This document shows positions 3,155-60,557 of a DNA stretch of 64,000 bases, in pieces. The stretch comes from Siderastrea siderea (taxonomy: Eukaryota > Cnidaria > Anthozoa > Scleractinia > Rhizangiidae), in contig OZ034969.1 in assembly GCA_964030785.1 (NCBI GenBank), positions 33,007,101 to 33,071,100 on the forward strand, written 5' to 3'. The notes beneath the pieces were generated by a model. The model was not told the origin of the DNA. It worked only from the letters and a program-made list of their open reading frames with translations, and made no database searches. A program made the position numbers and the translations under genes. Every line of letters begins with the position of its first letter. Positions within the stretch are counted from its first letter, which is position 1.

Positions 3155-4147
3155 CTACACTGGTTTCACTTCCGTTAAGGAGATCTGAGCCCCTCCCTCT
3201 TGTGCACTTGTCGATGTGAATCTTTTCGAATTCTTTGCTCCTTCTGCTGGTTGCATCACACTGTAGGCGATCGTGTACGCCATGGCAAGCTCCACTAGGC
3301 GAAAACTTGATTGAAATGCCAGCCATGGCCAAGGGGACGGGTGGACGACATCTCTGTACATTCCGTAAAAGCCAATCATGGAGTACAAATGTAAGCCACA
3401 CACTGCGATGCCCAAGAAGCTGGTGGCAAGCGTGATCTTTGCCACTTTGGTTGTGCGCGATTTCTGTTGCTGCTTGTTTTCTGGGCGCTCGTTTTTCTCG
3501 ATGGTGCTGAGTTGCTGTTGAACCTTATCCACGCGGTTGATCACCTTGCAGCCGCTGTAGATGAAACAGCCAGAGAGAAGCAAGCCCCAGAGATTGAAGA
3601 ATGACTGGCAGACGATCAAGAGTGCATCCAACTGTGGCTTGATGGAAGATGTCGTTTCTGCAGTGAAGACGATGACAAAATGAGCAACAACAACTGCAGA
3701 TAGAAACTTTGCATTCTGCAGCCTGCTTGGGCCGACCTTCAACTTGGTGACCTCCAGAAAAGCCAGGTGAATCAGACAAAACGAAGATGTCAAACAGGGG
3801 TAAGCGATTCCGAAGAGTAGCAGTGTTAGCCATTTTGGATCCTCCACGCCATTTTCTCTGGACTCGTACGGATCCAACATTAAATAGATGGCTCGAGTGA
3901 CTCCAAGGGCGAACAACAATGAGTTGATAGCCATATGCAAAGGCTTGCGGCAGAATCCTTTCTTGTGATTGACCAACGCTAAAGCGAGGAAAGAGTGGAT
4001 AGCAAGCAGTCCAAACGGAACGCCGAAACCAATCCAATGCAGCCCCCAAGCCAATCCCCACATCGTCCTCGCAACGAACCAGTCAGGTCCCGGTTCAGCT
4101 AGAGCATCTGTGGGAAGATTCACTGGCTTACTTGTGGCGTTTGACAT
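3155..4147 (-). CDS. PRRT3/PRRT4-like seven-transmembrane protein, gene 1
   Basis: A single-exon frame of 330 residues with an ATG start. Seven hydrophobic segments lie near residues 37-59, 70-91, 106-130, 147-168, 174-198, 236-262 and 274-297. Family motifs visible here are GPDW plus WGLAWGLHW before and in TM1, TRAIYLMLDPYESR at the end of TM2, YPCLTSSFCLIHLAF in TM3, QSFFNLWGLLLSG in TM5 and PSPWPWLAFQSSFRLVE in TM7. The DPY and PCLTS motifs match my recollection of the C-terminal membrane domain of vertebrate PRRT3/PRRT4; ligand and function are unknown. There is no signal peptide. An NAT sequon at residue 3 would suit an extracellular N-terminus. The TM5-TM6 loop is basic and glutamine-rich. 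This is the most divergent cluster member and has a longer C-tail. Confidence 0.85.
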   Translation of the reverse strand: MSNATSKPVNLPTDALAEPGPDWFVARTMWGLAWGLHWIGFGVPFGLLAIHSFLALALVNHKKGFCRKPLHMAINSLLFALGVTRAIYLMLDPYESRENGVEDPKWLTLLLFGIAYPCLTSSFCLIHLAFLEVTKLKVGPSRLQNAKFLSAVVVAHFVIVFTAETTSSIKPQLDALLIVCQSFFNLWGLLLSGCFIYSGCKVINRVDKVQQQLSTIEKNERPENKQQQKSRTTKVAKITLATSFLGIAVCGLHLYSMIGFYGMYRDVVHPSPWPWLAFQSSFRLVELAMAYTIAYSVMQPAEGAKNSKRFTSTSAQEGGAQISLTEVKPV

Positions 4148-4580
4148 CGTGAATGGACTTCAAGTTAAAGTCTGCAAATTAAACACTGCTATTAATGGAA
4201 AATCTCAATCCGACTTCACCTGTAAGGCGAATAATATTTTATCGACGGTCACATAAGTTCCTAGGAATTATTTGAGTCACAATGCAAAATGGCTTTGATA
4301 GATCCTAAAATGCTTTTAAAAACACGAAGTGAACCTACAGAGGTGTTCAGCCAGTCAATCACAAATCCCAAGGGGTGCCGATGGAGGCATTTGGTTGGCT
4401 CACTTGCCAGACCAAACTGGACGTGCTTTCGAGTCCAACGTTCTCGTATTACTCGCAAAATTGGTAGCCAATGAACAAGAAAAAAGATTAGTTTATCCTC
4501 GGCGAAATGGGTGGATAATTCTTCGATAATCACACGAATGGAAATATCGTGTATGTTCACCCCTAAGTTTTGCAATTTAA
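4148..4580. other. Upstream region of gene 1
   Basis: This is the presumed 5' flank of gene 1. I see no convincing TATA box, conserved element or upstream exon. Confidence 0.4.
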
Positions 4581-4763
4581 CAAATTGACGTCAGTTTTTT
4601 ATGCGTCTGTCCTCTTATTGATGATGAATTTCGTCATAACATTGTCAAAGTGTTGTAGATTCACGAGCCGCAGGCGAGTGGATCTACAACAAACTTTGAC
4701 AATGTTATGACGAAATTTATCATCAATAAGAGGACAGACGCATAAGAAACTGACGTCAATTTG
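4581..4763. repeat. Long near-perfect hairpin (~83-bp arms)
   Basis: The left arm starts CAAATTGACGTCAG and contains GTCTGTCCTCTTATTGATG. The right arm is its near-exact reverse complement, ending CTGACGTCAATTTG. The short spacer reads GAGCCGCAGGCGA. A diverged third copy of the GTCTGTCCTCTTATTGA block occurs at about 5250-5271. It is probably a fold-back element; no transposase is seen. Confidence 0.85.
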
Positions 4764-12892: not shown

Positions 12893-13853
12893 TCATTTGT
12901 TGTCACTCCTATTATTATTTTGCTGCTCCGAGCGTTGCATCACACTGAAGGTTATTGTACAAGCCATACAGAATTCAACTAAACGAAAACAAGTCTGAAA
13001 CACCCACCAAGGCCAAGGAGAAGGATTTACAGCTCTGCTATACAAGCCATAAACACCGACCATTGAATAAATCTGTAGTCCACAACAAACAAATCCCAAA
13101 ATACTTGTTTAGTAGGTTACCTTTGCGACTTTAGAAGTCCTTTGTTTACGCCGCGCTGCACTCGCCTTCGCAGCAGCGGCATCTCTAAGTTCGATTGTCC
13201 CGATTTGTCTCTGTGCTCTTCTAGCGCGATGAATGACTTTCAAACCACTGTAAATAAACCCTGCTGACAGAAGAAATCCCCAAAGGATAAAAAACGACTG
13301 ACACACGATCATTAATGGCTCAAGGTGTGGTCTCACAGCGATTGCTATTGCTGCCGTTAATTTCAAGGGCAAAGTGAGTTATAATTACACTAATAACAAA
13401 GCGTACGCTATGGATCTTTTTCGGTCCAATTTGAACCTTAGCGACTTCATAAAAAGCCAAATGGATCATACAAAACGAAGACGTCAAACAAGGGAAGGTT
13501 ATCCCATAAAGCAACCTCGCAAACTAGTTTGGGAGTTTGACACCATTGTCTCCTGACGAGTAAGGGTCAAGAAACATGAGCAATGCTCGCGTTGTTCCTA
13601 GTATCAAGAGCAAAGCATTTGTGGCTATATATAAAGGCTTTCGACTAAATCCTTGTCGGATTCTAACTTGTGCTAAGGCGACGAAAGAACGTACAGCTAG
13701 AATGCCGAAAAGGACGCCAAATCCAGCCCAATGAAACTCCCAAGCGATTCCCCAAAGCTGTTTTGCAACTGGCCAGTTAGGACCTGGCTCAGCATCTGCG
13801 GCCAAAGGTATATGCTGTTCAGGCGAGGTTTCCGGTGATGGAGAGCTTGCCAT
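12893..13853 (-). pseudogene. Broken PRRT3/PRRT4-like seven-transmembrane gene (copy 2)
   Basis: Starting from ATG at 13851-13853 (context ccaccATGG), the family protein can be followed to its end at 12893, but three lesions break it. A TAG at 13524-13526 replaces the tryptophan codon of the segment before TM3. One extra base at about 13357-13358 shifts the frame in TM4. A TAA at 13109-13111 interrupts the start of TM6. All seven hydrophobic segments and the DPYSSGDNG motif remain visible between lesions. Its closest relatives by eye are genes 3 and 4. The few lesions and conserved motifs suggest fairly recent inactivation, or a null allele in the assembled haplotype. Confidence 0.88.
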
Positions 13854-15285
13854 GGTGGAGGCAAGCGATACCCAGGAACATGTAACTTAGCCTAAGCCAT
13901 GAACACTTACCCACCTGCCTGTGTAAAAACAGCTAAATCAACTCTTAGTTCCACTCTGGAAGTATGGGAAATCGTTTTAGAAGAAACGCTTTATATGACA
14001 AAGAAAGTTTTGATGGCCTCACTCCAGAAAAGAAAAGAAGAAAGTTACCCGATTATGTTGTTTCCTTTGAATGTATGTTTTGCCGTCTATTTGTTATATT
14101 CTGAGTTTTAATGGCTAAATCACTACAACTAAAGACTCAAAGGTCGCTATTGATAACAACGATTTAGGTAATCAATAAACTTACACAAATTGTACAATAC
14201 TCTTTGAAATGTGTAAAACAAAAGGTATCCGGTCTTCTCGCTACACCACGCACAACTAATCTATTTTGACGCAAAATTAGACAGACAAATGAAACTCCGA
14301 CATTTGCCTGTTAAATAACACGTGCGGCCCTCAAGGATTCTTTCTCTTATGCTGTGTACACATGTTTGCTTGAAGATGCACTGTTGTTTTTGCCTGTTAA
14401 ATATCCCAGGTAAACAATAGACTTCAACATCACGTACGGCACCCTAAGCCGATCAAATAAAATTAGGATTCATTGTCATATGTGTGCACACATGTATTGT
14501 ATGACTAAGCCTTGCACCTGCTGTTATTATGTCACGTTCGTCGCCAATAGTGAAGAAACGGGACCAGTTTCGTACTGACTAGGAGGGAAGTGCTTTGCCG
14601 ACTATGTCAGTTAGCTGTAGCTGCTTTTTAAAATTTCAGTTTTGGTGGTCAGGCCAACTTGAGGAAGCAGAGAAAAAGTGCTTAACCTGCATGGGAGCAC
14701 GTGTCTAGGTGGAGCAGAGACGTTTGGGGAGAAGGAGTCGACGACCCTGAAGCCATTCAGAAGAAGGATTAACGGTTCGGGCGACACTTAAATATTAAAG
14801 AACCTCAGAGAACTCCTTCCAGTAGATTCTCTCTGGTTACCTGACCAGAAAGTTTGGATAACCAAGCCAAACAAGGGTGGCTTAGCAACGTTAAAACCAA
14901 ATACCTTGTGCAAACCCCTTCTGTTGGCCTAAGAAAATGCACATGAATTGATTGAGAGACAAAACCCCGAGAAAGCTTTAGCGACTAGTGGTCTGTGAAC
15001 TTTCGATTTCGTCAGTGTACAGTCAGTGCCTGAGTGTTTTACAGATTTCAGACTTGACTTATTTGTTGTAGAACCTAGTTAATTAATCAGATTGAATCTC
15101 CCTAAAGGATTGTGCATAGTTAACACAAGACATTTACCTTTGACTTAAAAGGAAGATGTCAAGTAAGCTATTTCGTAGGCGAAGTTATATTCCCACGGCT
15201 TAGGTACGAAACCATTGATACTTGAGTAAATTTCTGTTGTATTGCTCCAATGTCTGCTGTACAGCGTTTCAGTAAATCAATGAAT
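13854..15285. other. Upstream flank duplicated with gene 3
   Basis: ATCACGTACGGCACC (about 14431) and GTCACGTTCGTCGCCAA (about 14530) recur, diverged, upstream of gene 3 (about 19730 and 19855). The two loci therefore share upstream sequence as well as coding sequence. A shorter local repeat of GCCTGTTAAATA lies at about 14308 and 14391. The stretch 14600-15285 shows no supported gene. Confidence 0.5.
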
Positions 15286-18316: not shown

Positions 18317-19276
18317 TTATTTGTTGTCACGATTGTTGACGTTGTTTTGCGGCTCGGAACGTTGTGTAACGCTGTAGGCTATTGTACAAGCCATAGAGAG
18401 CTCAACCAATCGAAAGCATGACTGAAACACCCACCACGGCCAAGGAGAAGGATTTACAGTTTTGCTATACAAGCCATAAACACCAACCATTGAATACATC
18501 TGTAGTCCACAACAAGCAAATCCTAAAATACTTGTCGCGAAAGTGATTCTTGTGACTTTAATAGTTCTTTTTTTACTTCGCTTTCCGCTCTCCCTTGCAG
18601 CACTTTCTCCAAGTTCAGTCGTCTCGAGTTGTTTTCGTAATCTGCCAGCGCGAATAATCACTTTTGAACCGCTGTAAATAAAACTAGCCGACAGAAGGAT
18701 GCCCCAAAGGATGAAAAATGACTGACAAATGATCAGATATATTGCAAGGTCAGGATTAACAGCGGTTGTTATTGCTGCCGTAATCTCAAGAGCAAAGTGA
18801 ACTGTAATGATACCACCAACAAAGCGTGCACTTTGGAGCTTTTTGGGTCCAACTCGTATCTTAGCGACTTCAAGAAACGCCAGATGGATCAAACAAAAAG
18901 AAGATGCTAAACAGGGGAAGGTAATACCGAAGAGCAACCCCGCCAACCAAGACGGACATTTAACACCGTTGTCACCGGACGAGTAAGGGTCCAAAAACAA
19001 GCATAACGCTCGCGTTGTTCCTAAAGTGAATAGCAAAGCGTTTATGGCTATAAACAAGGGCTTCCGACCAAACCCTTGCCTTCTGTTGACCCGTGCTATA
19101 GCGACCAAAGAGCGCAATGCTAAAGCGCTGAAGAAGACACCAAATCCAGCCCAGTGGAACTCCCATGCGATTCCCCAAAGCTGTTTTGCTACTGGCCAGT
19201 ATGGTCCTGGCTCGGCATCTGCGGCTAGAGTAATATGCTGTTCAGGCGAGGTTTCTGTCGGTGAAGACCTTCGCAT
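18317..19276 (-). CDS. PRRT3/PRRT4-like seven-transmembrane protein, gene 3
   Basis: An intact single-exon frame of 319 residues; its ATG lies at the position shared with copies 2 and 4. Hydrophobic segments lie near residues 41-62, 73-95, 111-135, 151-173, 178-202, 234-260 and 272-294. GPYWPVAKQLWGIAWEFHW precedes and enters TM1, TRALCLFLDPYSSGDNG follows TM2, and NPSPWPWWVFQSCFRLVEL forms TM7. The TM5-TM6 loop (205-232) is basic and predicted cytoplasmic. The tail after TM7 is short and asparagine-rich. By analogy with PRRT3/PRRT4 this is a plasma-membrane protein of unknown role. It is the last tandem copy before the inverted duplication starts at about 20288. Confidence 0.87.
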   Translation of the reverse strand: MRRSSPTETSPEQHITLAADAEPGPYWPVAKQLWGIAWEFHWAGFGVFFSALALRSLVAIARVNRRQGFGRKPLFIAINALLFTLGTTRALCLFLDPYSSGDNGVKCPSWLAGLLFGITFPCLASSFCLIHLAFLEVAKIRVGPKKLQSARFVGGIITVHFALEITAAITTAVNPDLAIYLIICQSFFILWGILLSASFIYSGSKVIIRAGRLRKQLETTELGESAARESGKRSKKRTIKVTRITFATSILGFACCGLQMYSMVGVYGLYSKTVNPSPWPWWVFQSCFRLVELSMACTIAYSVTQRSEPQNNVNNRDNK

Positions 19277-21060: not shown

Positions 21061-22487
21061 ATTTATTTATATACGGTTAAAATTCATCAGGTAATCTTAT
21101 GTAGTAAAAATACTTATCTAAACATTACTGCCTAAAAGTGCTTTCCATGAATGCCGTGTCTCTATGTCTCTAACTTATAAAAGTACAACTGCACCATGGC
21201 TTGTTTTGTTTCCTAAAAAAATTGAAAATCTCACATCAAAGTATACTGGAACATTAAAATGTGAACGTAGTTGCAAGTAATAATATATAACTGCACCAGC
21301 AGCCTTTTCTCCTCTGATCCTAGAGAGGATTGAGGAGCCAAATGAAACAGCGCTTGCTTACACTTGCGCTTTATTTTGTAGTTTATACAAGACTGGATCC
21401 AATTTGCCTTCTTCATGCAAGTGGAAAACAGGAGACTGCTTGCTGTTTAAGTGATGATTTATTAGATGTCATCATCAAACCAGCCTGGGACCCTGTTGAA
21501 AAGCCAGTGTGACTATTAGTGAATACATGCAACCCAGGAATTTATAAGTTAATCTTTTTTCTTAGTTAGAGTTTCATTGCACTTCGAAGAGTTCTTGATT
21601 AGTAATGGTAATTGGACTCAGTGGAGCACAATTCAGGGAGTAATTGGGCCAGTTACTTTAAATCAGCCGAGCGCATAGCGCGAGGACGATTTGAAATTAC
21701 GAGCACGATTACCTCTGAATTGTACAATACGAAGTCCAGTTAATCCTATCTATAACAAATGCGAGATAAGAAAATCTATGTGCCCTTCAGGGATATAATT
21801 TTAATTACCAGTTTTGCAAGCAGTGGAGAAACAGCTGTAAAAAGAACCCATTTCAGTGCACCTGATTGACGCGTGCGCAACGTAGTTGTCGGATTACAGC
21901 TATCCAATTACAAAAAGTTCTTGTTATAGAAACGATTAATACAATAACCTAACTTTAACATTTAATACTTTCAAGGTCCTCAGAAGAGATTATTTTTAAT
22001 AAAGGGGTTAGTTACTGATTTTAAGAAACTGTGGTAATTTGTTGGTGGAAAAGTAAAAAAACAGAAATTGGGGTTTATCAACCAAGTCGATTTGGTAAAT
22101 TAGCTACCGAAAAGAAATGACAAAACTGATTTTTGAGTGTTAAATAGCTCATTTGCTCTAGTGAATCGCTAACACTCAAAATGGCAACTTTTAAATTAGT
22201 TTGTGGTGGCTAATTTACCATGTCAAACCAGTTGATGAATCCATGCAAATCATTTTTTTGCATTGTTATGCATTTTAACAAATAGGACTAAATTTACTTA
22301 CATAAATCAAACTATGTATCAACTAGTTTGCAAACTTTTTATTTTCTCCTTTTCATGTCTGCAAACAATTTATTTGGGCTTTTTTGATTTTGCAAACAAT
22401 TTTTTTCGGGATTTTTCATCCCCCCCCCTCCAAAAAAATAATGGTCTGTCCCTTATTCGGGGGCTGCGCTTACTCGAGTAAATACGG
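20477..22487. mobile_element. TIR element starting CCGTATTTACTCG, TA-flanked
   Basis: The ends are CCGTATTTACTCGAATAAGC and its inverted counterpart. The subterminal regions repeat ATAAGCGCCGC words. TA flanks both ends, fitting a Tc1/mariner-type duplication. The same element sits at the mirror position in the right arm (61618-62049), so it predates the inverted duplication. This copy is enlarged by the nested element at 20917-22452. Confidence 0.8.
20917..22452. mobile_element. Nested Harbinger-like TIR element, TTA duplication
   Basis: Left end GGGACGGACCATTACTTTTT, right end (other strand) GGGACAGACCATTATTTTTT, both followed by a G-run and GATGAAAA. TTA flanks both sides (20914-20916, 22453-22455). 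The mirror copy of the host element in the right arm reads GGCGCTTATTCGGG with one TTA and no insertion, a precise empty site. Subterminal CAAACAATTTTTTT words recur at both ends. The 1,536-bp interior has no transposase. Superfamily PIF-Harbinger is inferred from the TTA duplication and G-start TIRs. Confidence 0.82.
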
Positions 22488-23507
22488 TAATGAATACGTC
22501 AGTTGAAAGATGCGCGCGTACAAATACAACTGTATAACTACAAGCCGAACAGATTTGTTCGACTCAAGGAGGCATTCTCGTCCCCAGAGCTACCCAGTTA
22601 CCGCTGTCCAAGTAGATCAGGGGGCTCTGGGTACGAGGATACTCAAAGGGCCAATTACATCCGGAGTGTGGGATGTCAAGGACGGCAAGGAAACGTGGGA
22701 AAGTGTATAACACACGTTTTGCAACTCATTCCTTCAGTTAGCGACGTTCTCGTCGCCGTATTCAGAATCTGCTGGTTCTGGATAAGCGCATGATGGTCAA
22801 GAGCAGGCGTTGCGTGCGCAGTTCTCGCTGCAGTACACCAGCAAAGTACAGATAATGTATGCAATGTGACATTTGCGTTAAGTACTCACATATATAAGTA
22901 ACTGTCAGCCACTAGTTTTGCTGGCCTGAAATTATTCTGTTTGCTGTTGTATTTTTATGTCTTCTTACGAACTTGACTTCCGTAATAAGAGCTTCGCCCA
23001 CTTCAAGATGGCAGACATCTGCGATTTTCATCATCTTAAACATTACCAAAGCGTCAAACATTTGAAGTTGAGCACTGTTTAACTGTTTGGCTTCAGAAAT
23101 AGGTGGCAATTTATGTTTAGACAATTATTTGGTTGATTACAAGTGGGCATATTACCAAGATGTCACGATACATGCGTTAAAAAAATACTAGTTCGAAAAA
23201 CTAACATTTCGGTAGTGTAAATTTAGAGAAGCAGCAGAGAATTTGTTTGAATCCAACCAATTTTTGAATTGTCTATAACAGTTGTTTTCTTTTTTCGTCT
23301 AAGAACGTTAGTCGGCCGCCATCTTGAGTAGGCGTAAAAAGAAAACTAGCTGCCGGTGGATTCTATCAGTTCAGCTCGCAGTCAACTGTAGTTTGCTTGT
23401 TTAAAGGTGTTAAACTCCGACAGACTTGAACAAATTAAATCAACATATAAAACAGAAAATCGTAGGCTGCGAGCAATTAAGCTCACTTTTTGGTGGCAAG
23501 AAAGGAT
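22488..23507. other. 3' flank of gene 4 (left arm)
   Basis: It is conserved in mirror image at about 60558-61617. Only overlapping short frames are seen, with no recognised motif. Confidence 0.5.
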
Positions 23508-23512
23508 TTATT
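23507..23512 (-). terminator. AATAAA overlapping the stop codon of gene 4
   Basis: The TAA stop lies inside GAATAAATC, so a canonical poly(A) hexamer overlaps the stop. The same arrangement is kept in gene 7. Whether it is used is unknown. Confidence 0.3.
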
Positions 23513-38224: not shown

Positions 38225-41200
38225 ATGGCAGAAAAGGAGCTAGCACGAAATCGAGCTACACGAGCGGCAAATAGAGGCGTAGTAACGAAAATAATCGAAG
38301 AGTCCGAGGAGATTTTGGAAAACGATGCGGCACTTCACGATGTTAAATCGAGGAACCGACTAAAGCGAATACAAACGATGCTCAATGAAAAAATGCAGTT
38401 ACTCAAAGAGCTCGACGAAAAAATATTAGCCGCCAGTGAAATCGACGATATTGTTAAAGAAATCGAAGAAACCGAGTTTTTAAAAATGAGGATCATGGAT
38501 GCCCTCGAGAACATCGCATCAAGCAGCACACCTGCCTTGCCGAAAACCACGCCGACAACCGTTGCACAAGGATCATACGTTCAACAAGATATCTCGATCG
38601 AGAACACTTCGACTCCACCCGCTCCATCGGTACATCCTTCAGTGCACAACAATTTCACTGCAGCGGGATTATCTTCTCATCAGAATGTCACCGACGACAC
38701 GTTGCCTCCCGCTCCACCAACGTCTCCTCCACCTCTCATTCAGCACAATCCAGTAATTCCAACGACACAAGCACCAAAGTCACGGCTGCCAAAAATCACC
38801 TTGGCAAAATTCAGAGGCGAAGTGACACAATTCCGAACCTTCTGGGATACCTTCGAAAGCACAGTGCACGCGAATCATAGTCTTACGAAAATCGACAAGT
38901 TTAACTATTTGGTATCCCTACTCGAAGGATCTGCGTCTCGCGCTATCGCTGGATTGCCAATCACCGAAGAAAACTACGACGCGGCAATTGATATTCTGAA
39001 TAAGCGATTCGGTAAACCGCAGCAACTCATCTCAGCACACATGGATGAACTCTTGAAGATTTCTTCATGTTCAACGGACAAACCATCACAACGTCGCTAC
39101 CTTTACGACAAGCTTAGCGTTAACATACGAGGTCTGGAGGCACTTGGTGTGAAATCCGATCAATACGGCAGTTTATTAATTCCTATCATCATGGCCAAGC
39201 TTCCCCCCGAAATCAGAGTACACGTCGCTCGAAACACAACGCAGGATGTTTGGGATATCGAATCTATACTGAACGTAATTCAGAACGAAATCGAAGCGCG
39301 GGAAATCAGCGAGAAAGTCAAAGCCATGTCAAGTAACTCTGAAACTAAACGACCTCCGTTCCAGAAGAAAACGGATTATCCGACAGTAGGTGCATTTTTG
39401 GTGGATTCGAAACAGCAACTACAAACGCCTAAATGTGTTTACTGCTCAGGGATACATTTCTCGGCATCGTGTGAAAGTGTCACTGACATCAACGCTCGGA
39501 AAACAGTCCTGAAACGTGATAGAAGATGTTTTACATGTTTGAGAAAGGGACACAACTCGGAACAATGCGACAAGACCTGTAGAAGATGCAACAGCGGAAA
39601 ACATCATCAATCAATTTGCTTCGAATTGAACACCAACTCGCCGCGTAACACGAATACGCCGACTTCGTCCACATCAGGGGATCAAAACGAGAAGGATACA
39701 GAAAACAATGGCGTTACAACAGCGACCACCAATTCAGAGAATACAAACCCGAAGCGCAAAGTTTTGTTGCAAACAGCCGTTGCCATCGCCAAAAACGACG
39801 AGGGAACTAAATCGACCACAATCCGTATATTATTTGACAATGGCAGCCAACGGTCGTACATTACAGATAATTTGCGATCGAAGTTGCAACTGAAGTCTCT
39901 ACAAACGGAAAAGCTCAACCTTAACACATTTGGCGAGTCCAAGTTCAGAAAGCAGAGATGCGACGTGGTAAATTTGCGACTTCAAAAGTCGGAACACGAT
40001 GACCCGATCACAATATCCGCCTTAATGTTTCCTGTTATCTGCTCGCCTTTACCCGCGAAAGTTCACACGAATTATGCGCATTTGGATGGTCTGGAATTGG
40101 CCGATGAACCGTGCAGTTCAGGTAACACCATTGATTTATTGATCGGTTCTGATTTCTATTGGGACTTTGTTACCGGTGAAACTAAACGAGGTGAAGAAGG
40201 TCCGATTGCCGTAAACAGCGCATTGGGATGGCTATTATCCGGTCCAATCAGTGGAACCGTCGACCGAAGTTACAACACGCACACCAATTTGATCATCGAC
40301 TGCCAAAACTCCCTGTTTCAACCCACTGACGATGACATTCTAGCGAACTCTCTCAAAGGCTTTTGGGAGACGGAATCCATCGGTATCAGCGATTTGACGG
40401 CTAATGGAGAGGGCAAAAACGAGTCTTTTGAAATCGACGTAAAACGAAACGGTGATAGGTATGAGGTCAAGTTGCCTTGGAAAGAAGATTGCCACCCGTC
40501 TTCCAATGGCTACCAGTTATGCGAGTCGCGACTACGATCCTTACATCACAGGCTCCGTAAAGATTCGTCCCTGTTGTCCGAGTACGACAACATCATTCAG
40601 CAACAACTGAAAGCCGGGATCGTAGAAGAAGTGCCTACCGAAGAATTGACGAACAAAGCCGCGTCACAAAGTTACTATCTCCCACATCTGGCCGTGGTCA
40701 GAAAAGACCGCGAAACAACGAAAGTAAGAGTTGTTTACGATGGATCAGCAAAAGCTTCCAAGAAAGAGAAATCACTGAACGATTGTTTACAAACAGGACC
40801 AAACAACCTTCCACACGTTTTCGACATGTTAGCTAACTTCCGAAAAAACATTGTCGGTCTCACGGCTGACATCGAGAAAGCCTTTCTGATGGTCGGAATT
40901 CAAGATGATCAGCGAGATTTCCTACGATTTCTTTGGCTGGACAACCCAAGCTCAGAGAACCCGAAGATTATTCACCTCAAGTTCACACGGCTCGTATTTG
41001 GTTTACGCCCCTCGCCTGCTATTTTAGGAGAAACAATCCTACATCATCTTGAACTGCACAAGCAAAGCGACCCAGAAATTGCCGAGATCTTAGGAAAATC
41101 GTTTTACGTTGATGATCTGTTAACGGGGGAGTGCAACGACGAAAAGGCCCTCGCGATTTATCAAAGAGCAAAGAAGTTAATGGCGGAGGGCGGGTTTAAC

Positions 41201-42901
41201 CTCAGAAAGTGGAAGACCAACTCACCAAAACTACAGAGAGAAATCGCGGAATCTGAGAGCGTGGCAAAATCAATTAGCGAACAAAATGTAAACAAAGACG
41301 ACGACGAATCGTACGCCAAAGCGAACACTCAGGGTCTGAGCTCAAACACGCCAATCGATGAAGATATCTTCTTAAAAGTTTTAGGAATGAACTGGAACAC
41401 TCACACCGACGAGATTATATTCAGCTTTTCCAGTCTCAGCAAGTACGCAAGTTCACTTCCGCTCACAAAGCGATCGGTTCTCAAAGTAACCGCAAAGATT
41501 TACGATCCCATGGGATTTCTGTCACCTTTGACAGTGGAAATGAAAATCCTTTTTCAAGAACTGTGCCTTGAAAAAACGAACTGGGACACTGAACTGAAAG
41601 GAGAATCACTACGACGATGGAAATCGTTTCTTAAAGAATTGAGTCTCGTCGATTGCTATCGCATCCCTCGTTGTTATTTTGTGCGTCAACCCGTGGATAT
41701 ACAGTTACATGGTTTCAGCGATGCATCCGAACGTGCTTACGCCGCGGTTGTATATGTTAGGAGCACCTACAGTGATGGTCAAGTCGAAGTGCGTCTGGTC
41801 GCTTCTAAATCGAGAGTTGCGCCGATCAAGAGACAAACAATTCCTCGTTTGGAACTGCTTGGAGCGCTCATTTTAGCCCGTCTCGTAAACAAATTGAAGT
41901 CCCTTGGCGACGAAATTCCTGTTACGTTATGGACCGATTCTATGTCAACACTTTGCTGGATCAAAAACGAGCGGATATGGAAACAATACGTCGGGCAACG
42001 TGTTGATGAGATTCGCCGCTTGACTCCTACAAATGCGTGGAGGCATTGTCCTGGAGAAATTAATCCCGCCGATCTTCCTTCTCGTGGTCTGAGATCCAAA
42101 GAACTATCGTCTTGCAAAACTTGGTGGAATGGTCCAAATTTCCTGCGCAACCCTGTCGACCAGTGGCCAGAAATGTCACAACCAGCGCAAACTGAAGAAG
42201 ACGAAATTCAACGAGAGGCAATCAAGAATGAGCCAGTCATTACGCATTCAATGGTTAACACATCATCCCGCGACGCACCCGACCATGGAATTGACAAGAT
42301 AATTGACATTGAGCGTTTCAGTAGCATCACGAATTTACTACGAGTGACGGCATATGTCAACAGATTTATCAATAATCTCAAGATGAAAACGCAAAGAAAG
42401 AGCCAACGAAATTTAAACGAATTGAGAGCGGACGAATTGAAGAACGCTGAAATCTTATGGATCAACGCAGTACAAAAGTCAGCATTCACCGAGGAACTTT
42501 TCTTTTTAAAACGGAATGACTCAAAGTCTACACCGCCTATTCGAGTAGCTCAGTTTGGATTATTTCTCAACGAAGATCAAACGATCAGATGCAAAGGCCG
42601 AATCGATAATGCTTCACTGCCCGCTTCGAGCAAGTTTCCGATCCTCTTACCGCCGAAACATCCCTTCGTCAATCTTCTAGTTAAACAAGCTCACGATCTG
42701 GTCAAGCATTCAGGCATAAACGCAACCTTGACGACCTTGAGAGAGCGATTATGGATTTTGCGTGGACGAGAAACAGTAAAGAAGATCATACGTCGATGCG
42801 TTGTTTGCCGCCGGTACGAAACAACACCATGCAAGCCTACACACTTCGCCGATTTGCCTGACAACCGAGTTTCTGAGGACCCTCCGTTTACACACGTCTG
42901 A
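38225..42901 (+). CDS. BEL/Pao gag-pol, up to an in-frame stop
   Basis: A 1,558-codon frame from ATG. A gag domain of the DUF1759 type begins around LPKITLAKFRGEV (about residue 190). Zinc-knuckle motifs follow, including CFTCLRKGHNSEQC from residue 435. The aspartic protease motif reads DNGS at 538-541, the reverse transcriptase active site FYVDD at 960-964, and RNase H is marked by GFSDASERAYAA and WTDSMSTL. The integrase zinc-binding HHCC region lies just before the TGA at 42899-42901. The same frame reopens immediately after the stop. Asn in the protease motif differs from the commoner DSG/DTG. Confidence 0.9.
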   Translation: MAEKELARNRATRAANRGVVTKIIEESEEILENDAALHDVKSRNRLKRIQTMLNEKMQLLKELDEKILAASEIDDIVKEIEETEFLKMRIMDALENIASSSTPALPKTTPTTVAQGSYVQQDISIENTSTPPAPSVHPSVHNNFTAAGLSSHQNVTDDTLPPAPPTSPPPLIQHNPVIPTTQAPKSRLPKITLAKFRGEVTQFRTFWDTFESTVHANHSLTKIDKFNYLVSLLEGSASRAIAGLPITEENYDAAIDILNKRFGKPQQLISAHMDELLKISSCSTDKPSQRRYLYDKLSVNIRGLEALGVKSDQYGSLLIPIIMAKLPPEIRVHVARNTTQDVWDIESILNVIQNEIEAREISEKVKAMSSNSETKRPPFQKKTDYPTVGAFLVDSKQQLQTPKCVYCSGIHFSASCESVTDINARKTVLKRDRRCFTCLRKGHNSEQCDKTCRRCNSGKHHQSICFELNTNSPRNTNTPTSSTSGDQNEKDTENNGVTTATTNSENTNPKRKVLLQTAVAIAKNDEGTKSTTIRILFDNGSQRSYITDNLRSKLQLKSLQTEKLNLNTFGESKFRKQRCDVVNLRLQKSEHDDPITISALMFPVICSPLPAKVHTNYAHLDGLELADEPCSSGNTIDLLIGSDFYWDFVTGETKRGEEGPIAVNSALGWLLSGPISGTVDRSYNTHTNLIIDCQNSLFQPTDDDILANSLKGFWETESIGISDLTANGEGKNESFEIDVKRNGDRYEVKLPWKEDCHPSSNGYQLCESRLRSLHHRLRKDSSLLSEYDNIIQQQLKAGIVEEVPTEELTNKAASQSYYLPHLAVVRKDRETTKVRVVYDGSAKASKKEKSLNDCLQTGPNNLPHVFDMLANFRKNIVGLTADIEKAFLMVGIQDDQRDFLRFLWLDNPSSENPKIIHLKFTRLVFGLRPSPAILGETILHHLELHKQSDPEIAEILGKSFYVDDLLTGECNDEKALAIYQRAKKLMAEGGFNLRKWKTNSPKLQREIAESESVAKSISEQNVNKDDDESYAKANTQGLSSNTPIDEDIFLKVLGMNWNTHTDEIIFSFSSLSKYASSLPLTKRSVLKVTAKIYDPMGFLSPLTVEMKILFQELCLEKTNWDTELKGESLRRWKSFLKELSLVDCYRIPRCYFVRQPVDIQLHGFSDASERAYAAVVYVRSTYSDGQVEVRLVASKSRVAPIKRQTIPRLELLGALILARLVNKLKSLGDEIPVTLWTDSMSTLCWIKNERIWKQYVGQRVDEIRRLTPTNAWRHCPGEINPADLPSRGLRSKELSSCKTWWNGPNFLRNPVDQWPEMSQPAQTEEDEIQREAIKNEPVITHSMVNTSSRDAPDHGIDKIIDIERFSSITNLLRVTAYVNRFINNLKMKTQRKSQRNLNELRADELKNAEILWINAVQKSAFTEELFFLKRNDSKSTPPIRVAQFGLFLNEDQTIRCKGRIDNASLPASSKFPILLPPKHPFVNLLVKQAHDLVKHSGINATLTTLRERLWILRGRETVKKIIRRCVVCRRYETTPCKPTHFADLPDNRVSEDPPFTHV

Positions 42902-43837
42902 CTTGATTTCGCAGGACCGCTGTACGTCAATGAACCCCGCACTAGTTCTGGAAACACTAGCGCTGATTCCAACAAAGTTTACGTGTGTTTGTTTACATGC
43001 GCGTCAACTCGTGCCGTTCATCTGGAATTGACTCGAGGACTGAATGTACAAGATTTCCTTTTAGCCTTCCGCAAATTTGCCAGCAGACGAGGACTGCCGG
43101 CTACAATACAATCGGACAACGCAAAAACATTCCAATCTTCTAGCAAGGAAATTCGAAAAATCGCCCGATCACAGGAAGTCTGGAGATACCTAGCCAACAA
43201 CCAAATTACTTGGAACTTTATCGTGGAGAAAGCACCGTGGTGGGGTGGTTATTGGGAAAGACTCGTACGAAGCATTAAATCACCGATCAAGAAAGTCATT
43301 GGGCGATCGACGCTGAGTTATGACGAGATGAGCACCTTGCTGACGGAAGTTGAAGCAGTTATCAACGCTAGACCGCTTACGTATGTTTACGACGACCAAG
43401 AGTCAGTTTCTCATCCTCTTACCCCATCCGACTTAAGTTATGGGCGACGCATCTCCACGAGCCCTAACAGTCAGTATTACGAGACCGTGAGCACCTTCAA
43501 TTCCTTGACGAGGAGATTAAAGCACCATCGCCATTTGTTAGGGCAAATTACCCGCCGGTGGAGGAGTGAATACTTGACAAGTTTGCGCGAACAAGCCGCG
43601 AAAGGATCAAATGCTCGAGGTGTTAATGCGAAGCTTAAGGTCGGTGATATCGTGATTCTCAAGAACGATTCTGTCACACGAGCATTTTGGAAATTGGGAA
43701 AAGTTGAAGAATTGCTACCGGGACGAGATGGAGTTGTACGAGCAGCAGTAATCACCGTATCGCGTGGAACGAGTTCCAGCAACCAACGTTTGAGAAGACC
43801 TATTCAACATCTCATCCCAATTGAAGTAAAGTCATAG
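42902..43837 (+). CDS. BEL/Pao integrase core and C-terminal domain after the stop
   Basis: In the same frame as the preceding ORF, with no shift. It contains the integrase catalytic region: an Asp in LDFAGP right after the stop, an Asp in IQSDNAKTF, and a Glu in GGYWERLVRSIK. The end has a basic domain with LKVGDIVILKND, as in BEL/Pao integrase C-termini. The first internal ATG is at 42983, so after the premature stop it would not be made in phase with pol except by readthrough. The sequence otherwise looks intact to its own stop. Confidence 0.88.
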   Translation, partial: LDFAGPLYVNEPRTSSGNTSADSNKVYVCLFTCASTRAVHLELTRGLNVQDFLLAFRKFASRRGLPATIQSDNAKTFQSSSKEIRKIARSQEVWRYLANNQITWNFIVEKAPWWGGYWERLVRSIKSPIKKVIGRSTLSYDEMSTLLTEVEAVINARPLTYVYDDQESVSHPLTPSDLSYGRRISTSPNSQYYETVSTFNSLTRRLKHHRHLLGQITRRWRSEYLTSLREQAAKGSNARGVNAKLKVGDIVILKNDSVTRAFWKLGKVEELLPGRDGVVRAAVITVSRGTSSSNQRLRRPIQHLIPIEVKS

Positions 43838-46433: not shown

Positions 46434-46438
46434 ACGTA

Positions 46439-52699: not shown

Positions 52700-53708
52700 C
52701 AAACAAAATTACGCCGCGAAGCAGGGACGAGAGTAGAAACACACCGCTATCGGGGGCTTGAATCTCCGCTTTTTTTTTTCTATCTTGTCGCCACTGTCGC
52801 ATTCAGTTTGCGGCTTAACTAGGGTACGTACTGTATTGTAAAACACTTCGGGCATTAGAGAACACTCAAGACTATACTAGAGAGCACTTGCCCCGGCTCG
52901 TGCTAACTGCTACATTTTTCTCGTGTTCCCAAATTCCTGTCGCAATTTATGACAATATGTTACCTTGTTTCGCCTTCTTTATATGTTAAATAAACTACTT
53001 AAAAGTTGTAACGTACATATATGAATACCAGTGTAAAAAACTGAACCTATTTCTATTGTTTCGGGTGTGTTCGTGTGTAGAATTACTACAATACTTTAAT
53101 TGGTTTACTACCTGTGGGCCATGTTACTATATATATTGTTCAATTGTTTTCATCTACTTCCTGAGTTCCACATCAGTAATTAAATTAAATTAATTATTCG
53201 CGTTCTACTGAAAAAGAGTGAAATATCTATACTAAAAGCTTTTATTTCAATATTAACGAGCTGAATTGAAAAGAAAATTTATCAAGTTATCAGAAGCAGT
53301 AGATATCGAAGATTCATTTATCGGTAACGTAAATATTTTCACCGAAATTAAAAGTGCGTTGTCATGACAATATACAAATAAATGAAATTCGAGTGATATT
53401 GAAATGCCGTTAAATTTTACTTTGTAAAGGCACTTTATTTGAAAGAAAACAATTGAAGTTTGTTTAGATCACGCAAACTGGCACTCATCACGCAAACCGA
53501 AAATTCTGTAGACGGGACGAATACACCGAGTGCAATGATCATAAAACACTAGTATCATAACAAAACGCATAAAGGGTGCATCAGCTTGTCAAAGAACCCT
53601 GAACTCGATCTACATTTGCGAAAACGTTTATACAAGTGCACATAACGAACGAAATATCATCATATCAATATTTTCTAAGGCGAAAAAGCAGTTAATAACA
53701 GGTTCAGC

Positions 53709-54695
53709 ATGGAAAGAGTTCGGAAGTTGGAGAACTTTACAACAACGCAAGGTCCGTCGCAACAAGCCAGCATCCCTGGCGCCGAACCAGTACCAGACTG
53801 GCAAGAAGCGAAGAAACTTTGGGGTATAGCATGGGGTATTCACTGGATTGGTCTCGGTGCAGCGTTCAGTGCCTTGGCTATAATCTCTGTTGCTGCACTG
53901 GTGCGGTCAAACAAAAGGAGAGGATTCGGTCGCAAGCCTTTTGTCATCGCCATAAACTCTCTGCTCCTAGTTTTGGGCGTTACTCGTGCGTTGTACCTAT
54001 TTGTGGATCCGTACGAGTCAAGACAAAATGGACTCAAGATACCAAGATGGTTAGCTCAGTTGCTTTATAACATTGCTTTTCCCTGTTTGACCTCAGCGTT
54101 TTGTTTGATCTTCTTGATTTTTCTTGGAGTCGCCAAACTTCAACTTGTTCCGAAAAGGCTACAAAAAGCTGGCTTCCTTGTCGGTGTTATTTCCCTTCAC
54201 TTTGCCATTATCCTTATTGCAGAAATCATCGGGGTAATCAATCCGGACCTGGCGATTCCTGCAATTATCGTTTGCCAGTTCTTTTTTATCATCTGGGGTT
54301 TCCTTCTCTCAGCCAGCTTCATTTACGGTGGACTCAAAGTGATTCATCAATCAAGGAGCCTTAAAAAGCATCTACGCACTCAGCAGAAGACCAACATGTC
54401 GAAAGTTGCAAAGATCACTCTCATCACAAGTTGCTTAGGACTTGCCTGCAGTGTTTTACAGCTGTTTTCACTAATCAGTGTATACGGGTTTTATTGTGAC
54501 AATGAACAGCCCCCTTCCCCCTGGATGTGGTGGGGTTTTCACACTTCTTTTCGTTTGGTTGAATTCGCAATGGCTTGTACAATTGCTTATTGTGTTATGC
54601 AACCCGCCGATAGATACCGCAGTGGCAGCTCCAGAAGACAATCAACTATTCAAGTAAAAATACTCAGTGAAAAGACAAGTGACGGTAACATTTGA
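53709..54695 (+). CDS. PRRT3/PRRT4-like seven-transmembrane protein, gene 6
   Basis: An intact single-exon frame of 328 residues, the mirror partner of gene 5. The start MERVRKLENFTTT keeps the NFT sequon. Of about 15 differences from gene 5, six lie in residues 3-20, before the membrane domain. The others are mostly conservative changes in or near membrane segments. All family motifs are kept: PVPDW, DPYESRQNG, FPCLTSAFCL and PPSPWMWWGFHTSFRL. An intact reading frame after roughly 5% divergence suggests both copies have been under constraint, or that the duplication is young. Confidence 0.88.
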   Translation: MERVRKLENFTTTQGPSQQASIPGAEPVPDWQEAKKLWGIAWGIHWIGLGAAFSALAIISVAALVRSNKRRGFGRKPFVIAINSLLLVLGVTRALYLFVDPYESRQNGLKIPRWLAQLLYNIAFPCLTSAFCLIFLIFLGVAKLQLVPKRLQKAGFLVGVISLHFAIILIAEIIGVINPDLAIPAIIVCQFFFIIWGFLLSASFIYGGLKVIHQSRSLKKHLRTQQKTNMSKVAKITLITSCLGLACSVLQLFSLISVYGFYCDNEQPPSPWMWWGFHTSFRLVEFAMACTIAYCVMQPADRYRSGSSRRQSTIQVKILSEKTSDGNI

Positions 54696-55222
54696 ACTAT
54701 TCAGATCTGAGTCTTAAGTGGCCCAACAGAAGCACAGCCGAAAAAAACTAAGTGCAAATCTCATTTTGCGAAATATTGAAAAGCAAATTGAATAGCAGCC
54801 TAAGAAATACTAACCGATATCTTTCATCTTAATTGTTACACTATAGGATTTGGTCCTCAGTCTCAAAGTTTAGAACCACCTGATACAGTGTAATAAACAG
54901 CACCACATGAAAGTAATTCACAGTAGCTTTCTTTTCAGTAGCCACTCTTCGTGTTTTAATTGGCTTACTCAAAAGCTAGAACCACCATGTACACTATAAT
55001 CAACAGTAGCACAAGGAATTGAAGTAAATTGCTCAGTTAAGCTAACTTATTTCCGCAGACTTGAAAGCGAGAACCTTATGACTTCAGGTTCACTTCGGAA
55101 GACAACTGTATGAGGAAACAGAAATGCGCTGAACATCCGAGATAATTTGACATTATGTTATATAATAATTGTCACGTGAAACAACTTTCCCACGTTCAAG
55201 TGCCGGATGTTCAAATATAAAA

Positions 55223-56349
55223 GGAGTAAAGAACACCACTTTATAGCTTTACATGTTGCATAAGATGTAAATAAAGAGACTTGTTACGGATTCTGCGTTG
55301 CCATTTCTCAATCTCTCTTAGCCTTACACCATTTTTGTCTGTTTCATTCCAAGGTTTATGACCTTTTCTACCTAGGCTAACTGGTTTTTCTGCTGTTTTT
55401 TCTTAGGATGATTTTTAATTATAAAATGAATCATTACAATGAGACCACTGAAACTGCAAAATAAGGTAATGGAACGGCTCGTTGCTTTTCCTTTGTCCCC
55501 CGGCAATCATGTACGTGACCTGGTTTTAAGTATAACATTAAGCTTTTGGAAATTTTTCTAAGTGTCATCTGCCTTTTGAGGACTTTACCGATAACATTTT
55601 TCTATGTATAATCTTTTCATTTATCTTTCAGCCTTAAGTATTCAATAAAACACTTATATAATGTTGATTACTAATGATTTACGGGTTCTTACGGCAGTTG
55701 TCGCACGCCGCACAGCTGAAATATCTACGATATACGACCAGCCTCTAAAAGGAAACGAGTCTACCCGCATAACCGCTAATGTTACCCAAATAGACAACCC
55801 ATACGGGTGCCTCCGGGAATGACGAAGTTTCTCGCTGCAAGTAAAACGCCCACGCTACCGGTTTGAGAATGACGATGCCGGTTGCCAACAGTATGCGTTA
55901 TCTGGCTCCTTTTCTCATGGAGTAAAGAACACCACTTTATAGCTTTACATATTGCATAAGATGTAAATAAAAAGACTTGTTACGGATTCTGCGTTGCCAT
56001 TTCTCAATCTCTCTCAGCCTTACACCATTTTTGTCTGTTTCATTCCAAGGTTTATTTTATCTTTCAACCTTAAGTATTCACTAAAACACTTATATAATGT
56101 TGATTACTAATGATTTACGGGTTCTTACGGCAGTTGTCGCACGCCGCACAGCTGAAATATCTACGATATACGACCAGCCTCTAAAAGGAAACGAGTGTAC
56201 CCGCATAACCGCTAATGTTACCCAAATAGGCAACCCATAAGGGTGCCTCCGGGAATGTCGAAGTTTCTCGCTGCAAGTAAAACGGCTACCAGTTTGAGAA
56301 TGACGATGCCGGTTGCCAACAGTATGCGTTATCCGGCTCCTTTTCTCAT
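55223..56349 (+). repeat. Partial tandem duplication, right arm only
   Basis: 55223-55918 is followed by a second copy at 55919-56349 that lacks the part equal to about 55359-55617. Both copies contain AGTAAAGAACACCAC, AATCTCTCT..GCCTTACACC and TCGCACGCCGCACAGCTGAA. The left arm has a single copy (about 28133-28860). Confidence 0.85.
55270..55275 (+). terminator. Candidate distal poly(A) signal of gene 6
   Basis: AATAAA about 575 bases past the stop of gene 6, conserved in mirror position for gene 5. Confidence 0.3.
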
Positions 56350-59300
56350 TCAATATTTTCAAATATTTATTTTATTTACTTGTTTTTGAATGTTAAGTTT
56401 GTTACAATTGAAGAAGAAGCGAAGCGAGTGATGCTTCTACATTTCCTTTACACAACGCTCGTAAGTAACCAAGCAGTAACCAGCGTCAGTTTTTAAGTTC
56501 ATTATCGTGTGGCAAAATAAAAGGCTTTCGTTCAAAAATGCGTTAAACTTGAGGCTGCATTTTCCCTCAATAGTACTGTTTCTGTCCATTGAAGTACGTA
56601 TTCTGTTGCGCTTTTTATGTATCTCTGGTTGGAAATTAACCTTTTGGAATAACTTGTAAGTGAACTTGTCCATTTGAGGTGCGGCCCATGACATCTTTTC
56701 ATTTATGCCTCAAGACTTTTTCTCATATTTCAATTCTCTTACTTTGAACCTAAAATTGTTAAAAGGAAGTTATTTGAGGATTGTCAACGCAGAGATTTTT
56801 CATCTTTTGTTGATGACAATATTAATACATAAAGGGTACATTCATTTGCATCATTTATTATAAATAGATTGTATTTTGCCCGTATCCATGCTTTTCTTTT
56901 CTTGTTTCCTCGTCAGTATTTTCCCTACCAACCTGGCTCTGTTCTGGGCAGTTCAGTTTTAACAATGCCAAAACTGGAAATGAATGGATTGTTTGACTGA
57001 GGTTGTCTTAAATAAAGAGTGGGAAATTACTTACGACTACCACAAGTGATTTATTTTCCTTGGAACGTGAATCCAACTTATAACTATAGGGAAAAGCGAA
57101 GGAAGCTATTAAAATTTACTTTTTGTCAGGGCTTAGTCACTGTACTTGTTATTATGCCACGGTTTTTAAAGAGCTTTAAAACATTGATAGAAATTTAATA
57201 TTTCCACATAAAAGGATGAAGTTTAATGAAAAGCATTGGACGTTGCGGAGTTAACGTTTAAAAATAATAATCGTATTGCATGAAATCAAGCGATGCAATG
57301 TGTTCCATATGTTCCACTAAACTTTAATAACAGTACTTGTCTTTTGAAATTTTCTCATGATGCTTTTTGTTTTTATGATTCCGCAAATCTAGAGTGAAAT
57401 ATCGCTGGTCTTTAAATGCTCATCATCAAACGACCACACGGTTATTCATTTTTTTTTTATTTTGCTTTAAAAATGGTACATAAAGGATGCCTCTTCCTTC
57501 ATTTGCACCGACGTTCTGAGATCTTTTACACTAGGAAATTGTACAAAGACTCGTGGTTTTTTTTTCTGTTGTTGGCCAATCATTAAAGAGTTATTTTCAT
57601 GATACACAACGTTTTCTAAGGGAAATTGGACGAAGAAATATAATAAAGAGGAAATAGAATTTTACAGGCTAAAAAAAAAATGGTTTAAATGTTACGTTTG
57701 TTAAGCAAATCTGTTTCTATGCATCACGACATGACTTCGTATAAGTTTCGTGCCATGATTGAATTTTGAGTCTTTTGATATTCTTATCTTTGAAAATCAT
57801 TTGAAAGTGAACTTCTTAGCTTGAATTTTAGCTCACGGCTGCTTTTCGTTGATTCCTTTGCGGGTGGAAGATACATTTGAAGACCCTAAACCCAAAAAAC
57901 TTCGTCTTCTGGTTACGGTAATTTCATGTGTACTTTTATTTACATTTAAGTACTTTCTATGTGTACTTGTGGCGAACAAAGCAGAATGCAAAATGATCTT
58001 TTTTGTTTGCAAACATTTTTTTTTCTTTTTTCCTTCTTTGTTTTACATTTCCCCTCATGAATTAATTCTGGCAGAGACCTACCTAAGCAAGGTAAGCAAC
58101 TACCTTTCCGGACAATTTTTTGTTTCTGCAAGAAGAGCGAGAGAAGTTGATTATAGTTGTTTGCAGTAATTGTATATTAGTACTTTTATTTTCATCAAGT
58201 ACTTTCGATGTGTTTCTTTGAAAAATACAGCAAAATGTAAAATAATGCCGCTTGGTTTGAAGCTTTTGTGTTTGTCGTTTCCCCCAAGTGATATACATTT
58301 CTCCCCGTAATTCAACTCTTGAAAAGGTGGAAGTAGATTCCGAATTATCTCACCGTGATTTCTAAAAGCAAGAAATTTACCTTAGACCTCTCAATGATTT
58401 AGTTCCTTTCAAACATTCATTTGGCTCAATAGGAAAGAGGAGAAAATTATGATTTTCTGATTGTATGGTTCGGTCATTATATTATGTCACGGTTGGCAGA
58501 AAATGGTTTTAAAAATGACAAAACAGTTATGTCATATTTACATATAAAAGGGCGTACTTCTGTGAAAAACAATTTCGCAAAAAAAGCTTTTAAAACTGAT
58601 AGAAGTGTTATTTTATATTTGCATACAAAAGGACGTAAGTTTGTGAAATATATCATCTTGCATTGAAGGTAAAAATCAATCACGGTATTGCACGGAATCA
58701 GGCAAATGCGAAATTATAATTGAAAACATGGATTTTAGCATCAATTCGATGTTTACCTTTGTGCACTCCACGCAGTCGATAAGATTATTATCACATAACA
58801 AATACTGTAAGGTAGCACTTTATTGTTGATTCTGGCAGAGGATCGTGCACATATTCATAATATTCTCATTTTGTTCTCTATAGGTCCCTGGTTTGTAAAT
58901 GCTAAGTGTTTTAAGATCTTGACCGTCGTTTATTTACACCCAGTCATTGCAGACAGACACTTAACGGTCGTTAACGCGCCATCAGTGCAAGAACGACCAC
59001 TAATTTGTAATTGAAGTGGACAAATACAGCAAAACTGCAATTCAGGTTTGGCCAGCTGCCGTTGCAGGAAAAGCGTTAAAAGGTTGAAAGCTTGACCTTA
59101 ATTTACGTACTGATCCAAGGATTTGAGTTTTTGACTTGCAAGGGCATTCACGAGTCAGCCATTTACTCGAAAGGTATAGTGGCAGTTAGACTGACACCAC
59201 CTGTTTCGAAACCGTTTGCAGTTGTGGTTTTGCTACTTGAAATACTGGTGCATTGCAGATCCACCGTTTTAGTGTTGAAAACAGCAAACTTTGTTTGTCC

Positions 59301-59600
59301 TTGGCAGCAGTGGAGGTAGCAGTAGCAGTAGCAGTGGAGGTAGCAGCCGTCTTTCTCTGAACAGAGATACTGTACGTTTTTACATGCGCCAACTTGCGGG
59401 GATCAATATATCCTTTCACCTTTGAACAAAGAGCAAATGCCACTGCCGGAACAAAGCAAGCGCGATTGAGGGTTCAGCTATTTAAATCGGATCTCACAAA
59501 AACCTTTGTTGCCTCACCAATTGCAGGCAGCTTGCACTTCTCGGAAACTGGGTTTGCTCTAATCGTTACAAAAAGCTGGAAAGGTTTTATTCTGCTGACT

Positions 59601-60557
59601 ATGCCAAACTCCTTGCCAACTAAATCTTCGCCTTCACAACTCATTACGGTACCAGAGGCTGAGCCAGGCCCTGACTGGCCAGTTGCAAAACAGCTTTGGG
59701 GAATCGCTTGGGAGTTTCATTGGGCTGGGTTTGGTGTCCTCTTCGGCTCTTTGGCACTACGCTCATTCTTCGCTCTAATACAGGTCAAAACAAGACAAGG
59801 GTTTGGTCGGAAGCCCTTGTTTATAGCTATAAACTCTTTGCTTTTACTTTTGGGAGCAACACGAACATTGTTCTTCTTTCTTGACCCTTACTCGTCCGGA
59901 GATAATGGTGTTAAAAGCCCAGCTTGGTTGGCAACGCTCCTCTTCGGCATGACCTTTCCTTGTTTAACGTCTTCTTTTTGTTTGATCCATTTGGCTTTTC
60001 TTGAAGTCGCCAAAATCCAAATTGGCTCCAAAAAGCTCCAAAGCGTACGCTTTTTAGGAGGTATCATTGCTATTCACTTTGTTGTCGTCATAACTGCAGA
60101 AACAACAACCGCTATCAAGCCAAAGTTCGCTCCATTACTGATCGTGTGCCAGTCGTTTTTCATCCTTTGGGGATTTCTTCTGTCGGCAAGCTTCATTTAC
60201 AGCGGTTCGAAAGTCATTCGTCGCGCTAGCAGGGCTCAGAGACAACTCGAGGCAATCGAATTCAGAGAACCTGCTGCAAAAGCAACGGGTAAAAGACGAA
60301 GAGTAACAAGGACTTCAAAAGTTGCAAAAGTTACTTTTGCTACAAGTATTCTGGGATTTGTTTGTTGTGGTCTCCAGATTTATTCAATGTTCTTTGTTTA
60401 TGGCTTGTACAGCAAAGCTGTAAATCCTTCTCCTTGGCCGTGGTGGGTGTTTCAGACATGTTTTCGATTGGTTGAATTCTGTATGGCTTGTACAATAGCC
60501 TACAGTGTGACGCAACCTTCGGAGACGAAAAACAATAATGATGACAACAGAGAATAA
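59601..60557 (+). CDS. PRRT3/PRRT4-like seven-transmembrane protein, gene 7
   Basis: A 318-residue single-exon protein, mirror partner of gene 4. The frame is open for another 69 codons upstream (from 59394, no ATG at that point), but the start at 59601 is chosen because MPNSLPTKSSPSQ aligns exactly with gene 4, where the upstream frame is not kept. Family motifs are GPDWPVAKQLWGIAWEFHW, TRTLFFFLDPYSSGDNG, FPCLTSSFCLIHLAFLEVAK and PSPWPWWVFQTCFRLVEF. Of about 21 changes from gene 4, a cluster lies in the basic TM5-TM6 loop. Some changes, such as VEFCMACTIA in TM7, match the pseudogene, hinting at past sequence exchange. Confidence 0.87.
   Translation: MPNSLPTKSSPSQLITVPEAEPGPDWPVAKQLWGIAWEFHWAGFGVLFGSLALRSFFALIQVKTRQGFGRKPLFIAINSLLLLLGATRTLFFFLDPYSSGDNGVKSPAWLATLLFGMTFPCLTSSFCLIHLAFLEVAKIQIGSKKLQSVRFLGGIIAIHFVVVITAETTTAIKPKFAPLLIVCQSFFILWGFLLSASFIYSGSKVIRRASRAQRQLEAIEFREPAAKATGKRRRVTRTSKVAKVTFATSILGFVCCGLQIYSMFFVYGLYSKAVNPSPWPWWVFQTCFRLVEFCMACTIAYSVTQPSETKNNNDDNRE

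Follow-up and report, generated by a model that had tools for sequence, protein, structure and literature searches.

A 64,000-nucleotide stretch of the genome of the stony coral Siderastrea siderea (hereafter the window; assembly GCA_964030785.1, contig OZ034969.1, called C4 below, C4:33,007,101-33,071,100, forward strand) carries six intact genes and one pseudogene for membrane proteins of a single family. They are best explained as cnidarian members of the PRRT3/4 domain family (PF25987) that have been amplified by tandem and inverted segmental duplication, and dN/dS computation shows that the copies are under purifying selection. Whether the proteins are surface receptors resembling G protein-coupled receptors (GPCRs) we regard as evenly balanced; our confidence in the family identity, in the structure of the cluster and in the constraint is much higher than in this functional reading.

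Genes of the window and their family

Five of the copies lie on the minus strand: g1 (nt 3155..4147, 330 aa, subfamily A), the pseudogene psi (nt 12896..13856, of subfamily B type, broken by an in-frame stop and a frame change), g2 (nt 18317..19276, 319 aa, subfamily B), g3 (nt 23508..24464, 318 aa, subfamily B, from which the first structure model was made) and g4 (nt 29376..30362, 328 aa, subfamily C). The plus strand carries g5 (nt 53709..54695, 328 aa, subfamily C) and g6 (nt 59601..60557, 318 aa, subfamily B), the mirror partners of g4 and g3, with 95% and 93% protein identity respectively. The start of g6 is placed at the ATG that aligns with its relatives (nt 59601), while the list of open reading frames (ORFs) uses an upstream TTG at nt 59394. 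All seven were recovered as intact single-frame ORFs or tblastn matches, in agreement with the original prediction. Pairwise protein identity among g1–g6 is 51–95%, with tblastn E-values between window copies of no more than 3e-76, so that chance similarity is excluded. The motifs EPxPxW, DPY and PSPW occur in all six intact proteins. Of the motifs first proposed as shared, DPY and PSPW therefore stand, while PCLTS is found in five of the six, g2 having PCLAS.

In a homolog search with alignment A1, all 120 proteins listed of 236 bear the label PF25987.1, among them P0002, which is 99% identical to g3 over 100% of its length. A second protein search gave the same label on all 120 listed of 124, including a Ptychodera 'proline-rich transmembrane protein 3-like' and a Tegillarca protein. 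These labels are precomputed rather than direct model scores, and the equation of PF25987 with PRRT3/4 is taken from the names that labelled proteins bear in UniRef and NCBI, such as 'Proline-rich transmembrane protein 3/4 domain-c...' in UniRef. Named close relatives among the matches listed include Oculina, Desmophyllum, Montipora, Orbicella and Porites. The evidence that the window genes belong to PF25987 is indirect but strong, and the family assignment made at the outset is borne out by it.

An alignment of 77 rows (coral, hemichordate, mollusc and other sequences, with no vertebrate protein among them) has six residues, R, Y, C, W, W and R, invariant in every row, including the hemichordate, the mollusc and four window proteins; R195, W370, W372 and R380 in P0219 numbering are present in all 77. 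A conserved disulfide between transmembrane helices (TM) 3 and 5 was considered and dropped, the TM3 cysteine being Ser, Gly or Phe in 5 of the 77 rows. Vertebrate PRRT3 and PRRT4 have a long proline-rich N-terminus. Only 17–25 residues precede EPxPxW in the six window proteins, and among the matches listed, of which about a quarter of the proteins are named, none bore a vertebrate PRRT3/4 name, even in a region search with a 1045-aa octocoral relative. For these two reasons the window genes are filed in the PRRT3/4 domain family and not as orthologs of PRRT3 or PRRT4. In Actinostola, the annotated 568-aa protein P0001 carries two PRRT3/4-like domains in tandem; the annotation may have joined two adjacent genes.

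Amplification, inverted array and constraint

The whole genome (830.9 Mb, 402 contigs) was searched with g2 and g4, which gave 59 and 67 matched pieces; all copy counts below are lower bounds. By our grouping of these pieces, the cluster extends well beyond the window and holds at least about 30 copies within C4:33.00-33.37 Mb. Seventeen of these have an uninterrupted frame from an ATG, and the remainder (about 13) are broken or without the expected in-frame ATG (e.g. C4:33071851 and C4:33214149). Among the seventeen are two subfamily C copies lying 4.4 kb apart, L024 (C4:33129824) and L025 (C4:33134231), whose proteins are identical and stop short of the end of g4. Compared without gaps, their stretches of 1867 bases show 90 differences; the pair could stem from a recent duplication or from gene conversion, or be a repeat in the assembly. 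A second, divergent cluster (C1:60417934-60769676; L048, L083, L084) consists of about four repeated blocks with 20–28% identity to the window genes and has about nine near-full-length frames free of internal stops. With 16 further dispersed open-frame relatives on C1, C2, C3, C4, C5, C10, C13 and C14, the family totals at least about 40 open genes in this genome, and the domain is indeed amplified, as had been predicted. The dispersed relatives are mixed, some with long Pro/Glu-rich N-termini and others with short ones. The short N-terminus first noted (about 20–40 residues) is borne out for the cluster genes, but it is no rule for cnidarian members.

Within the window the duplication is both tandem and inverted. 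A left arm (nt 22452..31258, in aligned blocks with gaps between) aligns in inverted orientation to a right arm (nt 52839..61653), with identities of 91.4, 86.6, 90.7 and 91.1% by block over mostly intergenic DNA. At the gene level the mirror runs past the window edge: the minus-strand order g1-psi-g2-g3-g4 is matched on the plus strand by g5, g6, L010, L013 and L015, the partners of g4, g3, g2, psi and g1. Coding identity is 95.8% for g4/g5, 95.2% for g3/g6, 89.6% for g2/L010, 95.4% for psi/L013 and 95.1% for g1/L015, and L013 (C4:33077728), unlike its broken partner, has an intact frame. The three mirror pairs for which synonymous divergence (dS) was computed gave 0.108, 0.114 and 0.122. A single inverted duplication spanning five genes would account for four of the five pairs at similar age. 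The exception is the g2 pair, whose divergence is greater, and g2 lies about equally close to another copy, L009 (dS 0.119).

Nei-Gojobori ratios of nonsynonymous to synonymous divergence (dN/dS), the comparison suggested with the original prediction, lie well below 1 (0.14–0.45) in each of the 39 pairs that 16 intact genes form within the subfamilies, a set that leaves out L025 because its protein is identical to that of L024. A tree of 129 rows separates subfamilies A (g1), B (g2, g3, g6) and C (g4, g5), each with a support of 100 in the Shimodaira-Hasegawa-like approximate likelihood ratio test (SH-aLRT). It was built by a quick method from rows of 290–410 aa without X from P0002-P0114, and support is below 80 in 31 of 124 inner branches. 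Each subfamily also holds proteins from other sources, A and B including those of named other corals, and 13 changes on the tree are needed to account for the 20 rows of the Siderastrea genome. The subfamilies therefore predate this species, and the local amplification came later. In Oculina and in Desmophyllum, the contigs given for members of A and B have equal lengths (64,437,903 and 4,093,153, respectively), which suggests that the two are linked there too. The description of the family as lineage-specific is accordingly correct only in part: A–C are shared with other sources and the family is also present in a hemichordate and a mollusc.

Between the arms (nt 38225..43837, plus strand) lie ORFs of a BEL/Pao-type long terminal repeat (LTR) retrotransposon, with Pao peptidase, integrase zinc-binding and DUF5641 domains, which do not belong to the gene family. 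Two other ORFs of the window deserve mention. One (nt 62633-63556) has a weak GIY-YIG nuclease match (E 0.00043, barely under the cut-off) and may be a Penelope-like element; the other (nt 31561-32466, about 300 codons) has a weak Pfam match below its cut-off, and we take it to resemble the first ORF of a long interspersed nuclear element (LINE). Two class A GPCR (7tm_1) frames lie upstream of the cluster at C4:32872323 and C4:32947994, at distances of about 130 kb and 54 kb.

Predicted fold and possible function

The structure models predict seven helices in a GPCR-like bundle, and the charge bias of the loops in 22 rows fits an N-terminus on the outside and inner loops 1–3 on the inside. Class A chains top both Foldseek searches of the PDB, with class B and class F receptors in the same matches; other seven-helix folds are absent among the PDB rows listed, which is not taken as their exclusion. 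A viral fold library adds little: its matches are viral GPCRs, proteins of giant viruses and unrelated proteins of phages, and the root-mean-square deviation is poor for most of them. The resemblance to the GPCR bundle is real in the models but is no demonstration of common ancestry with known GPCR classes. Of the receptor-like behaviour first proposed, the seven-helix receptor-like fold is thus supported at the level of a model, and the behaviour itself we only infer.

If the proteins are GPCR-like receptors, each would sit in the plasma membrane, bind a ligand at the outer half of the helix bundle and pass the signal on by way of inner loop 3, which is strongly basic, with heterotrimeric G proteins as the likeliest partners. 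The roles that DRY, CWxP and NPxxY play in class A receptors would fall to a conserved core found only in this family (E-P-x-P-x-W, W and H of TM1, R and DPY of TM2, C of TM5, and W-P-W...R..E of TM7). Variation around this core would lie in inner loop 3 and, on the outer side, in the N-terminus, TM4 and outer loop 2, and the array would supply variants differing in ligand preference or expression. In subfamily B the mean pairwise difference is 0.38–0.44 in both termini, TM4 and the two loops (outer loop 2 and inner loop 3), and 0.12 in TM7. Such a pattern fits diversified sensing, yet it also fits the relaxed loops of any membrane protein.

Several results weigh against the receptor reading. 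The pattern of B does not recur in full in A or C: in A the C-terminus and the two loops (outer loop 2 and inner loop 3) differ by 0.25–0.35 and the N-terminus by 0.13, and in C (three genes) the difference is 0.25 in the N-terminus, 0.27 in outer loop 2 and 0 in the C-terminus. The Foldseek E-values against the PDB are only 1e-3 or weaker; for comparison, the available part of a recent GPCR survey gives a cut-off of E <1e-9 for structural homologs, against other libraries (PMC12716839). Both structure models draw on 17 alignment rows in common and are not independent, and a shared fold, itself predicted, would be no proof of function. A Pfam scan found no 7tm match in 22 family members. At the expected places in 22 aligned rows, CWxP of TM6 and NPxxY of TM7 are absent and a DRY-like sequence at the end of TM3 occurs in one. 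Counted anywhere in the protein, DRY, CWxP and NPxxY occur in 4, 1 and 0 of the 22 rows and in 10, 1 and 1 of the 77, as against 13, 21 and 24 of 28 coral 7tm_1 proteins used as a positive control. In local mode, hhalign scored 26.1 against 28 class A receptors of the same genome (the distinct sequences among the longest frames at 30 loci), below the reversed controls at 33.7 and 34.0; the global mode (P 0.007 for the true pair, about 0.09 for reversed pairs) was too weak to use.

The strongest competitor, which we consider possible but would not favour, is a non-receptor seven-helix family, such as a transporter, a lipid-handling protein or an accessory or trafficking subunit that shares a GPCR-like bundle. 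The missing GPCR sequence signature and switch motifs would be expected of it, and the invariant charged and aromatic residues within the helices (R195, W370, W372, R380) are unusual; the published record, in which no functional report on PRRT3/4 was found (see below), also leaves room for it. It seems unlikely that the genes are instead class A (rhodopsin-like) GPCRs so strongly diverged that the canonical motifs are gone. The top fold matches point that way, as do weak in-register TM5-TM6 matches in PDB sequence searches, to the ghrelin receptor with alignment A1 (E 0.002) and to galanin receptor 1 with A3 (E 0.14). However, the latter search had as its best match a Mediator subunit that is Gln-rich and unrelated (E 0.046), which shows how little E-values in this range mean; class B and F receptors share the fold matches, the three motifs are absent at their expected places save in one DRY-like row, no 7tm_1 match was found, and the local profile score is not above the reversed controls. 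Functionless, decaying or mobile-element-driven repeats, or a false duplication in the assembly, might account for the broken or startless copies in the C4 cluster (about 13 of about 30), the two identical-protein copies 4.4 kb apart and the retrotransposon between the arms. This explanation is already disfavoured and very improbable, since dN/dS is well below 1 in every pair, the arms are inverted and only 87–91% identical over mostly intergenic DNA, unlike split haplotypes, and the subfamilies recur in other sources.

The GPCR-like receptor reading has a broader form, which we put forward tentatively and with less confidence: the PRRT3/4 family may be an unrecognised GPCR class with its own switch residues, ancestral to cnidarians and bilaterians, of which stony corals have expanded the repertoire (about 40 open genes here) and human PRRT3 and PRRT4 are orphan members. 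If the window genes do encode receptors, the coral clusters provide a natural alignment of constrained and diverged copies for locating ligand-facing and coupling residues, and they would be candidates for a receptor family with a sensory or symbiosis-related role, one that surveys based on 7tm Pfam models would miss. In the literature covered (titles and abstract starts from 5.39 million open-access papers, with subscription journals and most preprints outside it) no study was found of the protein function of the human genes PRRT3 and PRRT4 or of a coral expansion, nor anything on protein function in the two papers that have PRRT3 together with GPCR, nor a paper joining the long name of PRRT4 with coral. 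PRRT4 occurs in 38 papers and is absent from the titles of the 30 listed; PRRT3 occurs in 129, and of the 25 listed two name the antisense RNA PRRT3-AS1 in the title, while most others are by title on long noncoding RNA or cancer. PRRT4 does occur in the abstract of what is, by its title, a leukaemia prognosis study (PMC9937759), and the main text of a coral receptor survey, in the form available, has no occurrence of PRRT or proline-rich (PMC9897584).

Comparison with known systems

PRRT2 is grouped with PRRT1 in the dispanin/CD225 family, and the likeness of PRRT1/PRRT2 to the window family is in name only. A 'proline-rich transmembrane protein 1' from symbiosis work in Hydra was rejected as a relative, as it is, in the part of that report available, a CD225/dispanin protein (PMC6019070). 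Class A GPCRs (PF00001) resemble the window family in the predicted seven-helix arrangement, the N-out topology and the best fold matches, but differ in their CWxP, NPxxY and DRY signatures and share no detectable sequence homology with it. The closest known system is the PRRT3/4 family itself, represented by the 'proline-rich transmembrane protein 4-like' proteins of Montipora, Oculina and Orbicella and the PRRT3-like protein of Ptychodera, whose PF25987 label is borne also by the protein 99% identical to g3. The likeness extends to EPxPxW, the R of TM2, DPY, the C of TM5 and WPW..R..E of TM7 across nearly all 77 aligned sequences; the window genes differ from it in having a short N-terminus in place of a long Pro/Glu-rich one, and in their many clustered copies.
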